From Mayamaea pseudoterrestris (taxonomy: Eukaryota > Bacillariophyta > Bacillariophyceae > Sellaphorales > Sellaphoraceae), in contig BROI01000034.1 of NCBI GenBank assembly GCA_027923505.1, positions 62,001 to 126,000 on the forward strand: 64,000 nucleotides of DNA. The letters run 5' to 3'. A program made the translations under genes and the position numbers. This document shows positions 23,859 to 56,477 of this stretch, piece by piece (position 1 is the stretch's first letter; each line of letters begins with the position of its first letter). Below the pieces are notes generated by a model. That model had not been told where the DNA came from and did not search any database. It worked only from the letters and a program-made list of their open reading frames with translations.

Positions 23859-26800
23859 TTATCCGGCCGTATCGGTGCTTGCTTCAGTGGGATAGTCCAA
23901 CACTTGTTGGCGATTTTTTAGACGGCAAAGCGCGGGTTTCATGGCCTTGCTTCCATGGAAGATGGTCGAGAACGATCCTACCATAATCAACTTGCATTTC
24001 GCTCTGGTTACTGCGACGTTCAGGCGCCGAAAGTCTTCTAATAAACGACCCACCTTCTTTTTCTCATTGCTGCGGACAAAAGAAATGATGATCACTGCCT
24101 TGTCCCGGCCTTGATAGCGATCGATGGTGCTGACTTCAAGACCTTTTGTCTTTGCCGTCGCAATCGAGGGGCACTTGCTGATGAAGTGAACCTGCAGTAT
24201 GTGGCTGTAAGAATGATGCTGTTTATTTATTACATGATTGGGTCGCTTTGCTTTGCTGCTTACCTGGGCCCGGAACGGACTAATGACGCCAACAGTGTCG
24301 GCTTGGACCCCGCAATCTACTAAACTGCCGACGATATTCCGGACAATTGTCGACTCTGTAGCGTTAACAGTTTTACCGGCACGCGTGTGTTCAAGAGGCG
24401 TAAAACTTTCTTCTATTGCGGAGTCAGTATTGATGAAAACGACAGGCATGGCGGGATTTAGGGTATCGCGCAGCCAACCTTGCGCCACGTTCTCAGGGTA
24501 ACCTGTTAGCACCAGCATCTGATTGCGAACATTATCATTCGCGCATTTGAGAGCGCCATTGTAAATTAAATCGTTACTCATCTGACAGATGTCTGCGTTC
24601 ATGCGATATTGAAAGCTTAATTTAGCGACCACGTCCGGATGGGCATCAGCGAGGAGCTTTAACATGGAAACACCGTAGCCTGGAGGACAAAATGCACGGA
24701 ATGTAAGAAGCGACGAATCTCATGCTTTAGCTATCCGCACACTCAGGCAAAAGCACTCACCTCCTTTCTCGGCAAGTTCACTGCTGACCAGCGGCGGAAG
24801 CTGCATGTGATCTCCCACAAGAACAAAAGTATCAGCAGACATTAGCGCTCCAATTATTGCTGGTTGACTTATTTGCCCAGCTTCGTCGACGATAACGACA
24901 TCGAATTGTTGACCCAAGAGCTGAGGCGACCGGGGAGCTGTCAAAACAGTGACTGCGACAATTTTAGCCGAATCAATGGTGCGTCGCACGAAAGTCGCCA
25001 GCTCCATACCATCGCCTTGTGTTAGGGCATTCTTTTCGATGTCTTCTGCTATGGTAGATGTCATCACTGGTAAGATTCCTTCGTGACAGTCTCCGGGACG
25101 ACCGACCCGAACCAACGGAGGCAATGGATGGCCAGAGTTTGTGGTGGCAACGCCCTTATCCATCAATTTCAACACAACATTGTCCACCGCCGCATTCGTA
25201 TATGATGTGACAAGAATTCGTTTGTCATGGGCCGCAAGCAGCCTGATCAGGAAAGTGATTGTACTTGTTTTGCCTGTGCGTGAAAACGTATAAAATTAAT
25301 GAAACTATAAAATATGTGTTAACATGGGAGTTACTCCGAGAAAACTTACCTGAACCTGGAAACCCTTGAATTAACGTATAGTCTGTGGCTGTGAACGCGG
25401 CTGTAATAGCCAACTGCTGGTCTGGATTCATTTCCGCATACTCTAATGCGAGATCCAAGAAGTCGCACCCAGGTACCAGCGGAGTGTCCGGCGGAGGCGT
25501 AAACAAGTCTTGCTGCAATTTATCATTGAAGCTAGGACGTCGAAGCCGAACGATTGCATCCCGGAGACGCTGCAGACGATTGCCAGCAGTATAATGGGAA
25601 GTTGTATCAGCGCTGAACAAATTAACAATGTTTTGACGCAAGGTTGATATTCCAGTGGCCACATGATCCTTGTCTATTCGGAAGCGAGTATCAGATTGTA
25701 CAGAAACAAGTTTATCCATCCTTTCCAAGTCAGCGACAGATCCCCGAACTGCTATACGGCTAGCGGAGATTGACTGTATTATGCCTCGAACAAGATGCAT
25801 TGGGTAACGGCGTGCCTTAAAATCCATTTTCCTGTCTTCGCCTGCGGATGTTGCTGTATCGCAACTTACAATCACGAGCGCACCAGGCTCAAGTCCGAAA
25901 TCTGTGAGTGGGACGTCCTGGCCTAGTGCAGACTTCCGGACGAATGAAACTGACACAGCACTCCGACCTTCGGGGTTTGTTGGTGGTATAGATAGTGAAA
26001 CGTGGGGATCATAATGAAGGTTTGCCAGGCAATTTGAAGTGCTTTGCCTTTCTGTCGAGTCGACAAGCCACGCTTGTGTGATAAGTGCGTGTTCGGCGTC
26101 TGCCTCCAGGTCTATGAGACGGTCAAAATGTTGGAAGTAAGCCAAATCGTCAGATTGCAGATGCCCAGTAAAAGCTTGCAGTAAATCTTTGTGAACACTA
26201 GGGCTGTCAAGTGGACCCAATTTTGTCGCGGCGGCCGCGTACAGCATGCATTCACGATTCATGTAGCACTTTTGACACTTGTGAGCATCAATCGGCAACT
26301 CTGGTAACGCAGCCACTGATGATCCCAGGAGCTCCACGCTATTTAAGAAGTTAAAGGTTAGAGACAAGTACAATTTTCAATTTCAAGTTGCATACATTCA
26401 ATTTGATGGAGGACACTTACTTCGCTCCGTTTGACGTATCAGGAGCATTTTGGAATGATATAGCATCTCCGCGTGGCCGAGCAGCACGGAGCGTTTCAAT
26501 AGCGACTTGGTTTCGCTGTCCCAACAGTGATTTTAAAACCGATAAACTCGGATTGGAAGACACAACACGAGCAGCATCATTGTTCATGTACAAGAGCATA
26601 CCATTTTCGCCGGCACTTTCAAATGACGTTGAGCTCGAGCAGTCGGCAACGAACCGCGAACGACGCATAATCATGTACAGCACCAATTGAGCCACATGTG
26701 CATCATTAGTCCGTTGTATGTGACCTGTCTTCAGTTCGACGCACATGGTGGAGACATCCGGACGTGAATTGGTTATATTTACGCTTTCAGTCGACGCCTT

Positions 26801-28633
26801 GACCAGCATATCGATGTTCCCCTTCAGACCAAGCTCTGGCGATACGACGGGCTCCTCAACCGCTTCTACTTCTAAGACCCGACATCGGATAGGAGCACTC
26901 AATCCGCAAGGCTCCAAAGCGGTAAGCTGAGCTGACTTTGACGATATCTGATTACCGAGGCATGTATATTGAGACGCGAACGCTTGTAGCTGCGGAACAA
27001 ATTTGATTAACTCCATTGCCGCCTCGCGAGGCGTAACTTTGCACGCCAGCAGTCCGTCTGCGTTTTCGCGAATGATACGCGAGATATGCCTTCTCGCAGA
27101 ATCAATGGCAAAATTGTTTTCCCTCATGCTGGCTTCGAATAACTCATGGCGCATGGTTCCGTACAGTGGGGCGATGGAGGTGAGTCCGGTTGATCCGAGC
27201 CTATTTTTGAGCACAGCGCGCCGCACGCAAGAAATACCCTCCGTGATAACTGTCGGAGTAAGGAGCATGTCGGGATGCACAATCAGTAAGTAATCGTCTT
27301 CAACAGTTCCAGGGCGCGAAATGGTGCGGAGAGTCAGCGGAAGCGCGTCGGCATCCGTCCCTAGCTGCCCCGATAGGGAGCAAATATGAATGTAGTCACC
27401 TTGCTCGATCGGAGTGAGATACCACTCGCCGCACAGATGAACGAGACCATCTGCCGCCCAACTCCGATCTTTTAAAGACTCGTAACGTCTTGCAAAGTCA
27501 TCCGCCTTGTGCATGGACTTATTGAGGGCGACTTCCTCAAGCATTTCTGTTCGCCATGCAGCGACTGTAAGCGTCTTTGTAAATGTGTGCTTGTCGTCAT
27601 GCACCCATAACACCCTGTATCTCGAATAAGTTAGGCATCCATCAACAGCATCAACTGACTGGCGAGCTTGATTTTGTTGGGTAGCTGGCAATATACCATC
27701 ACTTTGAGCGGCATGGACATTTTGTTGAGAAATTTGCTGTGTGATTGAATCGTCGAACGCAGCAAAATCAATATCATTTGGAAAGTCGCCAAACTCATCA
27801 TCGGTATGATTGACAACTTGTTTAGAGACTTTTTGGATAGCTGCAGGTGACTGACATTGTCCGAAGGAGGGTAGATTATGAATCGTTTCCGTTTGATTGA
27901 CTGCGTTTTCTTTCTGTGTCGCCTGCACCAAAGCGTCCAACGCGGCAAAATCATCCATACTTAAGTCAAGGTCGTCAAACTCATCGCTGATTGTCATCTT
28001 TTGTGCTACATGTGAATTGTCTCGTACGAGAGGGGATTTTGTTTCGACGGACGTGCGATCCGAGGAACTGACTTCTGCTGCTGCAGCTGCATTCGTATTC
28101 GAACCATCGTCTGGCGGAGTCTTCACCTGCTGCAGTAATGATGCAAACTCATTGTTTCGCGACTGAGGAGTCTTTGTTAAAGGCATTGGAGAAAGTTTTC
28201 TGTTGTTATCCAAAGGTTTTGCAGTTGCAGAATTGGTACTTTTTTCACCCACGACCATCTCTTGCAAAGCGCACTGTCGTCTCCGACGCTTTCTGCTAAT
28301 CAAATTATTGTTACTTTTCTTGTTTGCACCTGTCTGGTTGGTTTCATGAGCCGCAATAATGCGCGTGACTTCGGAGAGTGACGGTCGAGGTTTTCTCGTT
28401 GCAGCTCGTCGCTTGACAGTTTCGCCGCTACTGCTCGCCGATGACGTATTCGATGGTCCACTGGATGGAGTTTCGCGCGCTGCACCTGGCGTTCGAAAAG
28501 TGGGCGAGGCGAGTCTTCGAAGATCAACGCCGCAGCCTTCGTTCCAAACGACGCACTCGTCCTGCGAAAGCTGCGTTTCGCCGTTGAGGTTTTCGGGGTA
28601 TTCGTCTTGGTCACCAGTCGCATCAAAGTTCAT
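23859..28633 (-). CDS. DNA2: DNA2 nuclease-helicase, five exons
   Basis: Exons on the minus strand: 28,633-26,421; 26,338-25,350; 25,273-24,761; 24,679-24,264; 24,191-23,859. All four introns (82, 76, 81, 72 bp) are GT-AG and keep frame, giving 1,487 aa. DNA2 trims Okazaki flaps and resects broken ends. The nuclease part shows 'GTMRHELFE', 'GNIDMLV' and 'CVELKTGH'; Fe-S cysteines are in 'SCVRRAV' and in 'CQKCYMNREC' (C-x2-C-x5-C). The superfamily 1 helicase has Walker A 'GFPGSGKT' (split by intron 2), 'DEAGQ', 'GDHMQLPP', 'DRYQGRDK' and 'VAVTRAK'. The first ~400 residues are low-complexity. The fourth intron is 72 bp without a stop, so reading through it would insert 24 residues. Confidence 0.92.
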
Positions 28634-28826
28634 AGTTCGTGTGAACGAATCGCAGTCAATGGAAGCGTTTCTTTTGACCGCGTACTGGGATGTAATGAAG
28701 CAATAGGGTTGACCAGCAGCATCGGCATCAGTTGATCGGCGGATGGTCCATGGTTGGCGAGAGGATCGGATCCGGATTTTGCGCAAGTCGTCTCGTTACT
28801 CAAATTGTGTCGTACTTGACGCCACT

Positions 28827-31629
28827 ATGGGCGAAAGTGTGGGTGATGGAATGACCTTCATTCGTCGCGTTCATCGCACAATAACCAAAGTAACCATGGT
28901 GGTTCCAATGGCGCCCAAGCGCAAGCAGGCAAGCCATGACGCAGCTGCCTCGGATCTAAAGGCTCGCATATTCCTTGGCGTCGCTTGTTTCTGGCCTTTT
29001 CTCATCTTGGCGCTCTTCGCCGCGTCGGCTCCACGAGTGGAAACGGAGCAATCCTTGGCCGCGCTATCGTCCGACGCCAAACAATTAAAGAGTAGCTTGC
29101 GCAATGTACTGGATCGAGTCGATGTATTAGGATACGGACCGACGCATCCGCGTGTGGCAGTCGTTGTGGTAGGCGATGATACGAATCAACTACTAAAGAC
29201 GGTTGAAAATGTCTTTTTGCACACTGATATGAATCGGATCTTTGTCGTCTGCGTTGTGGTGGAAGGAGCGGCGGAGAGTCCTCAATTAGTCAATCAATTC
29301 AGAAAGATAGATCAAGGTAGTACTCCGCATTGGCATGGTCTACGTCCGGATATTCACTCGGAGGAGCACGCGAACAAGAAGGAAGATTTAGACGACGATC
29401 CTCACGGATACAAGATGAAACTATTCTTTCACCCAGAAAAGCAAGGACTTGCGGAGAGCAGAAGTGAGGCAGTTCAGTTTGTTTCTATACTCAATAAACA
29501 TCACGAAAACGCTGGACTCAAGTCACCAAATGAGGACATTATCTTATTACTCTTGCAACAAGGAGTTCAAATCGAATCTACAAAGTGGATTGCACCCGTC
29601 ACGTCAGCACTCATTGTTCCTCCACCTTTACTAGGAGAAGCGGATGCAGAAGTGGCAATCAAAATGGCAAATGCTGTTGCGTTTAACACAGAGGGACCAG
29701 GAAGACGAACGTCGTTTGACACGACCTTTACACCACTCTTATCATCGCCGTCGACGGAGGAGCTCAATGCGTCTAACGGAGATTCATACCCGGCACCTGC
29801 CTTTAGCGGAGCTGCCATTGCCATGCGTCTTGATACTTTTGTCAATCTCCCGTCGCATGACACCTCACTGACGGAGGAATGGCCTGCCAATTTGGAGCTC
29901 ACCCTTAATTTGTGGCTTTGCGGCGATGGCATTGATGTCTTGAAAGATGTAAAGGCCACTACCGCTAGCCAAGTCATGTCAGCAGCACTTCCTCCGCAAT
30001 CAGCAGCTCGGTTCGCCGCCGCGTGGATGGATGGGGCCACGCAGAAACGGTTCTTTCATGCGTATCGTATTTCCTACCCAGAACTTACCTACTTGGAATG
30101 GGAAACACTTATGGGCAAGGCCAAACAAGCAGCGACATTTACCAAGGATTTGCCTAAAAAATGCCGAAGCTTTAAGTGGTTTGCAGAAACGATCAATCCC
30201 GACATTCGGGCCATCCTCGCAGAGTCTGAGGATGCCGAAAGCGAGGAGCGTTCGATGAAGGAAGAAGACGACGAACGAGAGGAGGAGGAGCAGGACTTGA
30301 GCGACGCTAAATCGGTAGACGAAAAAGCGGCAGGCAAAGAAGCATCGATGAACGATAAGGGTGATGATGAATTTAGCATTCCGGAACGAAAGGACGACGG
30401 GAAAAAGCCGTCCGAGCCGCTTTGTCCGAAATGTCTCGAGATTGTGCAAAAGGCAAAACCCATTGATATAAGTTTTGTTGATGTGTCTAACGGTCATAAG
30501 GAGCATCCTCATAAGGGTGCAACCGACGAGCATGGAAAGCTTGGATATATTCACGATGAAACGGCTCTTCGAAAGAACCCTCCGGCTCTAAATTACCCCG
30601 AGGCCAGCCTTCGCGAAGCGTGCCTAAAACGTGACAACAACTATAAAATGTTGAATGAAAGGGTGTATGTCGACCTCGAATATGACAAGAAGATGCAGGC
30701 ATCTGGCAAGCCGCGGCCTAAGATCTTTTGTTTTGTTTACACGATTGATTCAGGTCACTCAAAGATTCCGAATATTCGTGAAACTTGGGGGTGAGTGATG
30801 ATTTGGCATGGTTATGCTTTTATCGGGAAAGAGCGACGTTGACCAACATTATTCTTTTTCATTCTTTTCTTGCAGACCAAAGTGTGATGGCTTCATGGTT
30901 GCTTCCAATCTGACAGATCCTACGATTGGTGCTGTCAACATTGTCCACGACGGTCCCGAAACATACAATAACATTTGGCAGAAGGTTCGGAGCATGTGGA
31001 GCTACATTTATGATAATTACTACACATCATACGATTTTTTCCACATTGGAGGCGATGATTTGATGCTCATTGTGGAGAACTTACGCTACTACTTGGAGAG
31101 CGAGGAGATCCAGACGGCACAGAACGGAGGAATCTTTCTGCCAGACGGAACGGAGACGACCCAAGTTCCGCTCTTCCTCGGACGCCGATTCGCGTACCTT
31201 GGAGATCAGAACGATATATTCAATTCCGGAGGATCAGGTTACACTTTGAATAAAGCCGCTCTGAAAACACTTGTGGTGAACGGATTTCCCGAGTACTTTC
31301 CTCACGCAGTAACATTTTCAGAGGATACCATGGTAGCTCGAGTATACCGCCACTTTGGCGTCTACCCCTACGAGACGAAGGACAAGGACGGAGGCGAACG
31401 ATACATGCCATTCCTTCCTGGGCATCACTATGGCTATCGAATCCCCAAAAACACGAATGAAGACTGGTACGCCAAGTACTCAATCGATATCAAGGAAGGA
31501 CCAGAGCATTGTTCACCAAGAAGTATTGCGTTCCACTACGTGAAAGATAACGGCATGAAGAGGCTCTTTGCGCTGCTGTATCACCTTTGCCCACCAGACA
31601 CTCTGGATCCTCCCGCCAGTAAATCGTAA
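28827..31629 (+). CDS. Type II membrane glycosyltransferase: GalNAc-T-like half plus C1GalT-like half
   Basis: Exons 28,827-30,790 and 30,876-31,629, with an 85-bp GTGAGT-AG intron; 905 aa. ATG 28,827 has A at -3 and G at +4; an in-frame ATG at 28,743 is possible. A signal anchor ('LGVACFWPFLILALF') at about 45-67 suggests Golgi type II topology. Residues ~110-440 resemble family GT27 (polypeptide GalNAc-transferases): 'KQGLAESRSEA', 'AFSGAAIAM', 'LNLWLCGDGIDVL' and 'KCRSFKWFAETINPD' fit in order. The DxH metal site expected after the 'IILLLL' strand is absent. An acidic linker follows. Residues ~620-880 are GT31/C1GalT-like: 'IPNIRETWG', 'FHIGGDDLMLIVENLRYYL', 'FSEDTMVA'. The gene is divergent to DNA2. 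Confidence 0.75.
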
Positions 31630-54795: not shown

Positions 54796-55770
54796 TTAGG
54801 GCTTCTTCGTGAGAAAATCCGAGTGGACCAAATACTCGAGCAACTGTATCGTCAAACACCTTTCGCGTCTCACATCATTGGCAAGTAATTTGCCAAGCAA
54901 CGTGTCCTTTGTCCTGTCCTTTGGTACCATGGGTGCTTTGCGATTAGTCTGACTGCTGGTAGCCCCAATTTCGTGAGAAAATGCGCAATGGTCGCCGTTT
55001 CGACATGTTTGATTCCTGGCAAAAAAGCGACAAACGCCACGTTTCGGTTTCAAATCATCCTTAAAAATCTCTGCTTCATCTGGGGGTAAAGCAGGATCAC
55101 GATTGGCGCGACATACTATCGTCTGTGCTGCTTCATCATTGTCCGATGCATCCGACGAAGAATACCCAGCCAGCAAGGAAGCCACACCACTTGTCTCAAC
55201 TGCCGCCATCTTTGGCGGCGGCGCAACGATATTCTCAACAGCTTCCGCAGCTTTCTGCCGCCTTGGAAACCGTCGCTTGCGCTCCTCAATCCATTCCTTG
55301 ACATCATCGGGGTGATTACCCACGCAAATGCGGAACCGCTGTGTTGGACAACCAGGAACAGCGACAGTGATGGACTTGAAACCGCCTCCGGCAAACCTGC
55401 CATGTGACGACTCGTAGTGAGCCTTTACGAGCTTAGGGGCCGCTGTATAGCCGCATTGCGAGCATGTCGTGTGGCTGGCGAGGTGTGCCTGCAGGGCCGC
55501 GTTGGAATCCAAGGAAATGTCGCACGATTCGCACCGAAACTGCTCGTCTCGTGGCCGTTTTCTCGACTGATCGGAAGCATTTGGAACTGTTGGTTGTTCA
55601 ACGTGTCTTACTCCGTGAAATAAAGGTCCGATATGTTGTGAATGACTGTAATTGTATGGAATGGCTGCCATTTCCGTGCTCCCGGCGATAGGAGCAGGTG
55701 GCGGAGGAGGAGGAGGAGGAGCTGCAAAGAACCCAGACGGTAAGGTAGATTGCTGATCCGGTAATACCAT
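54796..55770 (-). CDS. NUFIP1: NUFIP1/Rsa1-like box C/D snoRNP assembly factor
   Basis: 324 aa. A proline run at 18-26 is followed by a C2H2 finger (C80, C83, H96, H100) and a second Cys pair ('CSQCGY'). The NUFIP1 core motif 'FRICVGNHPDDVKEWIEERKRRFP' region lies near 140-165. A CCCH finger (C-x8-C-x5-C-x3-H, 'CRFFARNQTCRNGDHCAFSH') lies near 255-275. The C-terminal helix ends 'LEYLVHSDFL'. NUFIP1 bridges 15.5K/SNU13 proteins and the R2TP chaperone during snoRNP assembly in the nucleus. The combination of C2H2, core motif and CCCH is characteristic of the plant/protist form. Confidence 0.78.
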   Translation of the reverse strand: MVLPDQQSTLPSGFFAAPPPPPPPPAPIAGSTEMAAIPYNYSHSQHIGPLFHGVRHVEQPTVPNASDQSRKRPRDEQFRCESCDISLDSNAALQAHLASHTTCSQCGYTAAPKLVKAHYESSHGRFAGGGFKSITVAVPGCPTQRFRICVGNHPDDVKEWIEERKRRFPRRQKAAEAVENIVAPPPKMAAVETSGVASLLAGYSSSDASDNDEAAQTIVCRANRDPALPPDEAEIFKDDLKPKRGVCRFFARNQTCRNGDHCAFSHEIGATSSQTNRKAPMVPKDRTKDTLLGKLLANDVRRERCLTIQLLEYLVHSDFLTKKP

Positions 55771-55839
55771 CTCGAACTAAACTTTCAGTGCTCCTGTTTG
55801 TGACTTGAATGAGGATCAACGTCCGTTGCAGCAGAATGA

Positions 55840-56477
55840 ATGGATGCGCGGCGCTGTGAGCGCGTTGGAACAATCAACCTGCCGCCATGGTCGACCCGAG
55901 CACGTGTCATATCGGTACTGAACACGTTTCGTGGTCATTTCGGATTTCGGAACGTCGAGAAAGCCGCCGATCAGCTGATGCATCAAAGCAAATCGAGCCG
56001 AGCAATCACAGCATCAGCCATGGCATCCATACAGCGTGCAACTGCTACATCGGATGTTCATGTACAGGGGCACGAGGTAAGATATCATGAGGAGACTGAG
56101 GAAGACTTGATAGAAGTTTTGAGTTGTCGACGTCGAAAGCGTTCGTTCCAACATTACGTTTCAATTGTCACGCTGTCCTCATATTGTTGCTTTTACTCTT
56201 TTACTCTTAGCAACGCATAGAAGAAGAAGTCAAGCAGTTGCTTCTTGATATTCGTCGCATTGGAGCAGATGGTCCAAGCTGCACTTTTGGACAGCTTTTT
56301 GATGATGAGCAGGCGGAGCAATATTACGAGGCGATCGTTGGTACTCTGAAATGTGCCAAGAAGCGCGGACTCATTGATTTTAAAGGACAAATGCTTTTGA
56401 AAGGTGTACACGATAAGGTTGATATCTCAATCACTGATTTGGGCCAGAAGGAAAAGGCAGTGTCGTCCGCGGAATAG
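55840..56477 (+). CDS. ABRACL: Costars/ABRACL-domain protein
   Basis: Exons 55,840-56,076 and 56,211-56,477; the 134-bp intron (GTAAGA-TTAG) keeps phase 0 and gives 167 aa. The second exon is almost entirely one Costars domain: 'EEEVKQLLLDIRRIG', 'CTFGQLFDDEQAEQYYEAIV', 'GTLKCAKKRGLIDF', 'MLLKGVHDKVDI'. Costars proteins regulate actin dynamics and cell motility in amoebae and animals. Animal ABRACL has about 81 aa, so the N-terminal ~80 residues here are extra; translation may instead start at Met 56,020. Only 69 bp separate the annotated start from the divergent NUFIP1 gene. Confidence 0.85.

Follow-up and report, generated by a model that had tools for sequence, protein, structure and literature searches.

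Does a single diatom gene encode a protein in which a part resembling the ppGalNAc-Ts of family GT27 is joined to a part resembling C1GalT1 of family GT31, and which of the two parts can still function as an enzyme? The locus lies within the window, that is the stretch of 64,000 nucleotides analysed here, which is part of one contig (C34) of a 30.6-Mb genome assembled in 41 contigs. The genome shows diatom markers, including 53 light-harvesting matches (counted exon by exon, not as genes) and 10 silicon-transporter matches, 9 of which are over the cut-off, with a best E of 2e-197. The silicon-transporter control gave a weak match, below the cut-off, in one of 14 genomes, and an elicitin search gave no match, as did its controls. 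Three silicon-transporter (PF03842) matches were also encountered in one frame of 1445 aa on the minus strand (G000:C1:2970661-2974680), a possible triple-fused silicon transporter.

Protists are described as typically initiating mucin-type chains with GlcNAc via GT60, and ppGalNAc-Ts outside animals are reported from apicomplexans and as absent from other protist genomes (PMC8724618). The same source states that, for the protist group to which diatoms belong, mucin-type O-glycans "remain to be characterized". Possible O-GalNAc enzymes have been predicted, without experiment, in Phaeodactylum and other microalgae (PMC7140410), a prediction in some tension with the absence of ppGalNAc-Ts reported in PMC8724618. 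Brown-algal genomes are credited with an average of 9 GT31 genes, plus GT60, and GT27 goes unmentioned in the sections consulted of that account (PMC11468063). No description of a GT27-like/C1GalT-like fusion was found in the portions consulted of the literature searched on GT27, GT31 and diatom glycosylation.

The explanation that we favour, at somewhat better than even confidence, is that a C1GalT-like enzyme, probably active, is joined to a degenerate and probably non-catalytic GT27-like domain, the latter serving as an acceptor-binding or folding module.

Gene structure and protein architecture

A single gene spans both glycosyltransferase-like parts, as seen from the open frame and its splicing, and its product is a type II membrane protein. 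An uninterrupted frame of 693 codons on the plus strand (28713-30794) covers the transmembrane (TM) segment and the N-terminal half, continues through an acidic linker and reaches into the C1GalT-like domain. Exon 1 (28827..30790, +; 5′ limit approximate) encodes the cytosolic tail, the TM segment, the GT27-like half, the acidic linker and the C1GalT-like start. It is followed by an intron of 85 bp (30791..30875, +; GTGAGT...TTGCAG), the removal of which joins TGG GG to A CCA (read as WGP) and brings TWG up to PKCDG. The frame ending at 30794 is thereby continued across an intron that the earlier note had not stated into exon 2 (30876..31629, +), which holds the bulk of the C1GalT-like GT31 domain. 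The intron position is common to four paralogues, where candidate lengths are 87 or 81, 84, 74 and 108 bp, and the paralogue on contig C1 reads through at this shared position.

The possibility of two separate genes is rejected: one open frame runs across the junction of the halves, exon 1 has no GTRAGY donor, and the only break is the shared intron, which lies within the C1GalT domain. That both parts belong to one protein, as the earlier note had proposed, is borne out by this single frame and by the PDB matches of each part. Within the N-terminal half stops number 0 in the frame read and 11-27 in each of the other five, the codon score is positive in the read frame alone among the three forward frames, and the probability of 420 open codons arising by chance at the local base composition is about 3e-10.

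Candidate start codons in frame are the ATGs at 28743, 28827, 28851, 28896 and 28908, and the true start may be that at 28827 or 28896; translation from the first ATG (28743), with the intron removed, yields 933 residues. A large frame on the opposite strand of the window (26417-28795, -) overlaps the 5′ end of the open frame, and the two therefore form a divergent gene pair with almost no spacer.

A predicted TM segment of the type II signal anchor kind (aa 76-94; 28968..29024, +) is the sole Kyte-Doolittle 19-residue peak above 1.6 across the 933 aa. Beyond it lie the degenerate GT27-like half (aa ~134-490; 29142..30218, +), an acidic linker with 28 D/E per 70 residues and no TM segment (aa 491-560; 30213..30422, +), and a CPKC segment (30423..30722, +) that is also found in the five closest diatom paralogues; the C1GalT-like domain follows and runs to the C-terminus. 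There is no second TM segment, and the C-terminal half therefore relies on the anchor that precedes the N-terminal half.

Similarity of the N-terminal half to GT27

Searches in both directions connect the N-terminal half to GT27. A phmmer search of 29142-30218 against the PDB returned 16 distinct sequences at E <= 10 (best, 3e-4), a set identical to the one that human GALNT2 itself retrieves at E <= 0.001; they represent about nine enzymes, because GALNT2, 1 and 9 recur and one entry is named only "Glycosyl transferase". When GALNT2 was searched against the whole genome, exon by exon and with only the best candidates scored, the fusion gene was the top match (E 0.0025), followed by a GT60 gene (0.27), with nothing further at E <= 10. 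The Smith-Waterman score of the N-terminal half against GALNT2 is 104, compared with 33 +- 4.6 for shuffled sequences, none of which reached 104 in 1000 trials.

This similarity is confined, where significant, to the last ~145 residues of the half (29763..30209, +), from subdomain B to C.SFKW, so that the subdomain B likeness and the C.SFKW end that characterize GT27 are both found. No shuffle in 1000 matched the Smith-Waterman score of the back part, and a six-row GT27 profile scores the N-terminal half at E 3e-8, wholly from the back (best of 2000 shuffles, 0.71). The score of the front half against GALNT2 was matched or beaten by 28 of 1000 shuffles, and that of the KQGLAESR-QQG stretch, chosen post hoc, was equalled or beaten by 8 of 1000. 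With a front-only profile of two rows (GALNT1 and GALNT2) the front ranked 94th among itself and 2000 shuffles, and its likeness to GT27 is therefore indistinguishable from chance. Searching the PDB with 29142-29920 gave one unrelated match (E 3.2). The sequence landmarks of GT27 quoted in the earlier note are all present, with KQGLAESR starting at 29439, AFSGAAIAM at 29799, LNLWLC in the stretch starting at 29877, and CRSFKWFAE, the GT27-type end of the catalytic domain, at 30162 (30162..30188, +), but only the back part is significant and the front landmarks stand at chance level.

Neither half matches a Pfam family above the cut-off (sub-threshold matches are DUF5523, E 0.11, and S_100, E 0.12), nor does either have an entry among the NCBIfam families. 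GALNT2 itself matches PF00535 and PF02709 in the Pfam comparison, and the fusion gene is absent from the matches of genome searches with PF02709 and PF00535. Searched against the genome at E <= 0.1, the N-terminal half finds only itself. Single-sequence AlphaFold models, built with no alignment of relatives, have a mean pLDDT of 32.4 and 33.5, too low to be informative about the fold; a Foldseek comparison with the second of these poor models (33.5) had nothing at E <= 0.001, and the best 50 of its 351 matches included no GT27 protein. No relatives of the N-terminal half or of exon 2 were found in the viral contigs scanned, and a four-protein alignment of exon-2 parts found none in viral contigs or in the scanned genome contigs.

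Could the N-terminal half be some other GT-A domain, such as a branch of the GT60 line that is partly GT27-like? The restriction of the likeness to ~145 residues and the lack of a Pfam match would suit such an origin, as would the finding that the GT27 profile also matches one of six GT60 proteins (C15; 22.2 bits, E 9.5e-6, compared with 30.4 bits for the N-terminal half). GT27 and GT60 are therefore not cleanly separate, and this reading was weighed slightly upwards because of that match. However, the set of PDB matches is exactly that of GT27, the reverse search puts the fusion gene first, and a profile of six of the genome's GT60 proteins fails to pick out the N-terminal half, ranking it 264th, below many shuffles. 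PF11397 (GT60) is likewise absent from its Pfam matches. A GT60 origin is rejected with reserve, given that both PF11397 and the GT60 profile miss this half, and such a branch appears quite improbable. Seven loci of GT60, the polypeptide alpha-GlcNAc-transferase family, were found in the genome, all of which show D[A/S]H; two GT60 matches with identical scores lie 12 kb apart on the minus strand (G000:C8:43143-43844 and 55216-55917), either because the gene was duplicated recently or through the assembly.

Catalytic motifs of the GT27-like half

In ppGalNAc-Ts manganese is held by DxH and by the His of GHVF(R) (PMC6994419). Within the well-aligned part of the N-terminal half, EWPAN (29877..29891, +) occupies the position of WGGEN, and the His of GHVF(R), the third metal ligand, has no counterpart. 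The structural motifs C.SFKW and WMD are retained. DxH itself has two candidate places, QQG (29556..29564, +) and NKH, neither of which reads D.H, and its placing is uncertain. The global aligner picks ILNKHHE, which keeps the His and not the Asp; LQQGV was preferred by judgement, because it is preceded by a hydrophobic strand and followed by W..P, as in GT27. No DxH can be recognized, but the site read as QQG in the earlier note falls where the alignment lacks significance. We infer the loss of DxH only indirectly, because the front, where the motif is expected, ranks among shuffles. Judged from the residues present, the stronger signs of lost catalysis are EWPAN in place of WGGEN and the missing GHVF(R) His, rather than QQG. 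The GT27-like part looks catalytically dead, in agreement with the pseudo-enzyme suggested in the earlier note.

Metal-independent GT-A enzymes exist, and the order of the domains would suit initiation followed by extension, so a bifunctional protein performing two steps, in which the N-terminal half is a still-active metal-independent transferase, has to be considered. This is very improbable, for the aligned part is without both WGGEN and the metal-binding His, and no DxH can be recognized.

The C1GalT-like half and its paralogues

The C-terminal half was rightly described as GT31/C1GalT-like: once spliced, it aligns with Drosophila C1GalT1 (PDB 7q4i) over 270 residues at E 5.2e-32. Residues were compared in an alignment of eight members, the fusion protein and seven paralogues, with their roles taken from PMC9065035. 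E150, K158, D183, D255 and H324 are present in all eight and D182 in seven. The ED of the xED motif, with the equivalent of D255, the catalytic base according to PMC9065035, lies at 31321..31326 (+), and the C-His, equivalent to H324, at 31534..31536 (+). W300 is found in six members including the fusion protein, which also retains Y304 and is the only one of the eight with S220. Y325 occurs in five members, as does Y218, which is replaced by Phe in the other three, the fusion protein among these; its human equivalent, Y206, is reported as critical (PMC9065035). R152 is found in none and is Tyr in the fusion protein.

The DxD formed by D181 and D183 is incomplete, with D181 replaced by Gly in all eight members. 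The GGDD to which the earlier note pointed in this half is indeed present (31048..31059, +), but as an altered DxD site. Without D181, the residues that remain at the metal site are D183 and H324, and because D181 is missing the C-terminal half is filed as C1GalT-like and not as C1GalT1. GGDD as the mark of a specially inactive copy was ruled out, the Gly being common to the eight aligned members. The base and C-His, conserved across the family, speak for activity of the C-terminal half, and the C1GalT-like part is probably an active enzyme; its activity could be reduced by the replacement of D181 with Gly and of Y218 with Phe.

These same two changes raise the possibility that the whole protein, with both halves inactive, is a helper of the paralogous enzymes in the manner of Cosmc (C1GALT1C1), a C1GalT1 relative that lacks DxD and acts as a chaperone for C1GalT1 (PMC9065035). 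Yet the Gly is found in every aligned member and the Phe in three of the eight, so that this copy is not specially disabled, and the base, the C-His and the GalNAc contacts S220, W300 and Y304 are all retained. A helper of this kind is considered improbable.

The size of the C1GalT-like family is a lower bound, because the search scores best candidates only; the alignment leaves out an eighth paralogue that is weak and partial (C6:447292-447765) and whose open frame has VVDVGT close to the DxD site, and a Fringe-type GT31 on C3 falls outside the comparison. Ahead of the conserved CDG, a Kyte-Doolittle peak above 1.6 occurs in four of the seven paralogues (C1, C16 twice, and C2), with weaker peaks in those on C11 (1.45), C25 (1.37) and C6 (1.2). 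Two C1GalT-like frames stand in tandem in L032 (C6:443000-452000), and the one with VVDVGT may be a degenerate copy. Two further loci, L034 (C9:1029000-1036000) and L035 (C16:18500-25500), hold look-alike long frames (888 aa and 711 aa) in which a GT2-like part lies towards the C-terminal side and the long N-terminal parts differ.

None of the seven paralogue frames, judged by eye, has the N-terminal half. That these paralogues do without it, that its front is scarcely recognizable and that its catalytic motifs are lost would all be expected if the GT27-like half were a decayed relic, a long stem only, with neither a binding nor a folding role. Against this, its frame has stayed open, its codon use is coding-like, and C.SFKW and WMD are retained; a mere relic is thus unlikely.

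Proposed role of the fusion protein

Under the favoured explanation of a dead GT27-like module on a working C1GalT-like enzyme, the diatom product would be a type II membrane protein of Golgi type, in which an anchor is followed by the GT27-derived domain and then by the C1GalT-like GT31. The GT27-derived domain, its catalytic motifs lost, would form a kind of enlarged stem that separates the membrane anchor from the GT31 domain; the latter would take a sugar (by analogy, galactose) from a UDP-sugar and add it to an O-linked acceptor. The likeliest role of the N-terminal half is non-catalytic: it would no longer transfer, and may bind the acceptor peptide or aid folding or dimerization. Since no better GALNT2 match than the fusion gene was found in the genome, whereas seven GT60 loci were, the acceptor could start with GlcNAc rather than with the GalNAc suggested in the earlier note.

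A more specific reading, which we put forward tentatively and at well below even confidence, is that the diatom's only GT27-like domain serves as an integral pseudo-enzyme, reading peptide acceptors on behalf of the attached C1GalT-like enzyme. If true, one chain would do what is done in animals by lectin domains or by a separate chaperone, and a GT27-type ancestor would have reached the stramenopiles, contrary to the absence of ppGalNAc-Ts from such protists reported in PMC8724618. A diatom GT27-like domain closer to animal ppGalNAc-Ts than to GT60 bears on the origin of mucin-type O-glycosylation. The fused domain, if it is a dead transferase, would plainly illustrate how an enzyme can become a part for targeting or folding, and the pairing of what looks like a working enzyme with what looks like a worn-out relative of the animal enzyme that initiates mucin glycans may show how enzymes are reused as helper parts.

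Comparison with known systems

The C-terminal half shares with C1GalT1/T-synthase (7q4i) the catalytic base, the C-His, D183 and the UDP contacts E150 and K158. It differs from it by Gly for D181, Tyr for R152 and Phe for Y218, and the fusion protein adds the CPKC segment and a large N-terminal domain. The back ~145 residues of the N-terminal half, with WMD and C.SFKW, resemble the GT27 ppGalNAc-Ts, whereas WGGEN, the GHVF(R) His and a recognizable DxH are lacking. Animal ppGalNAc-Ts are described as carrying a ricin-like lectin domain (PMC6994419, PMC8724618) where the fusion protein has the linker and GT31. Cosmc, unlike the GT27-like module, is a separate protein and is itself C1GalT1-like. 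Two GT-A domains, GT31 and GT7, are combined in one Golgi protein in the chondroitin synthases and chondroitin polymerizing factor, a group that includes non-catalytic members. The fusion protein differs from the chondroitin synthases in having a GT27-like domain instead of GT7, in placing GT31 last, and in that its GT31 is of the C1GalT type.
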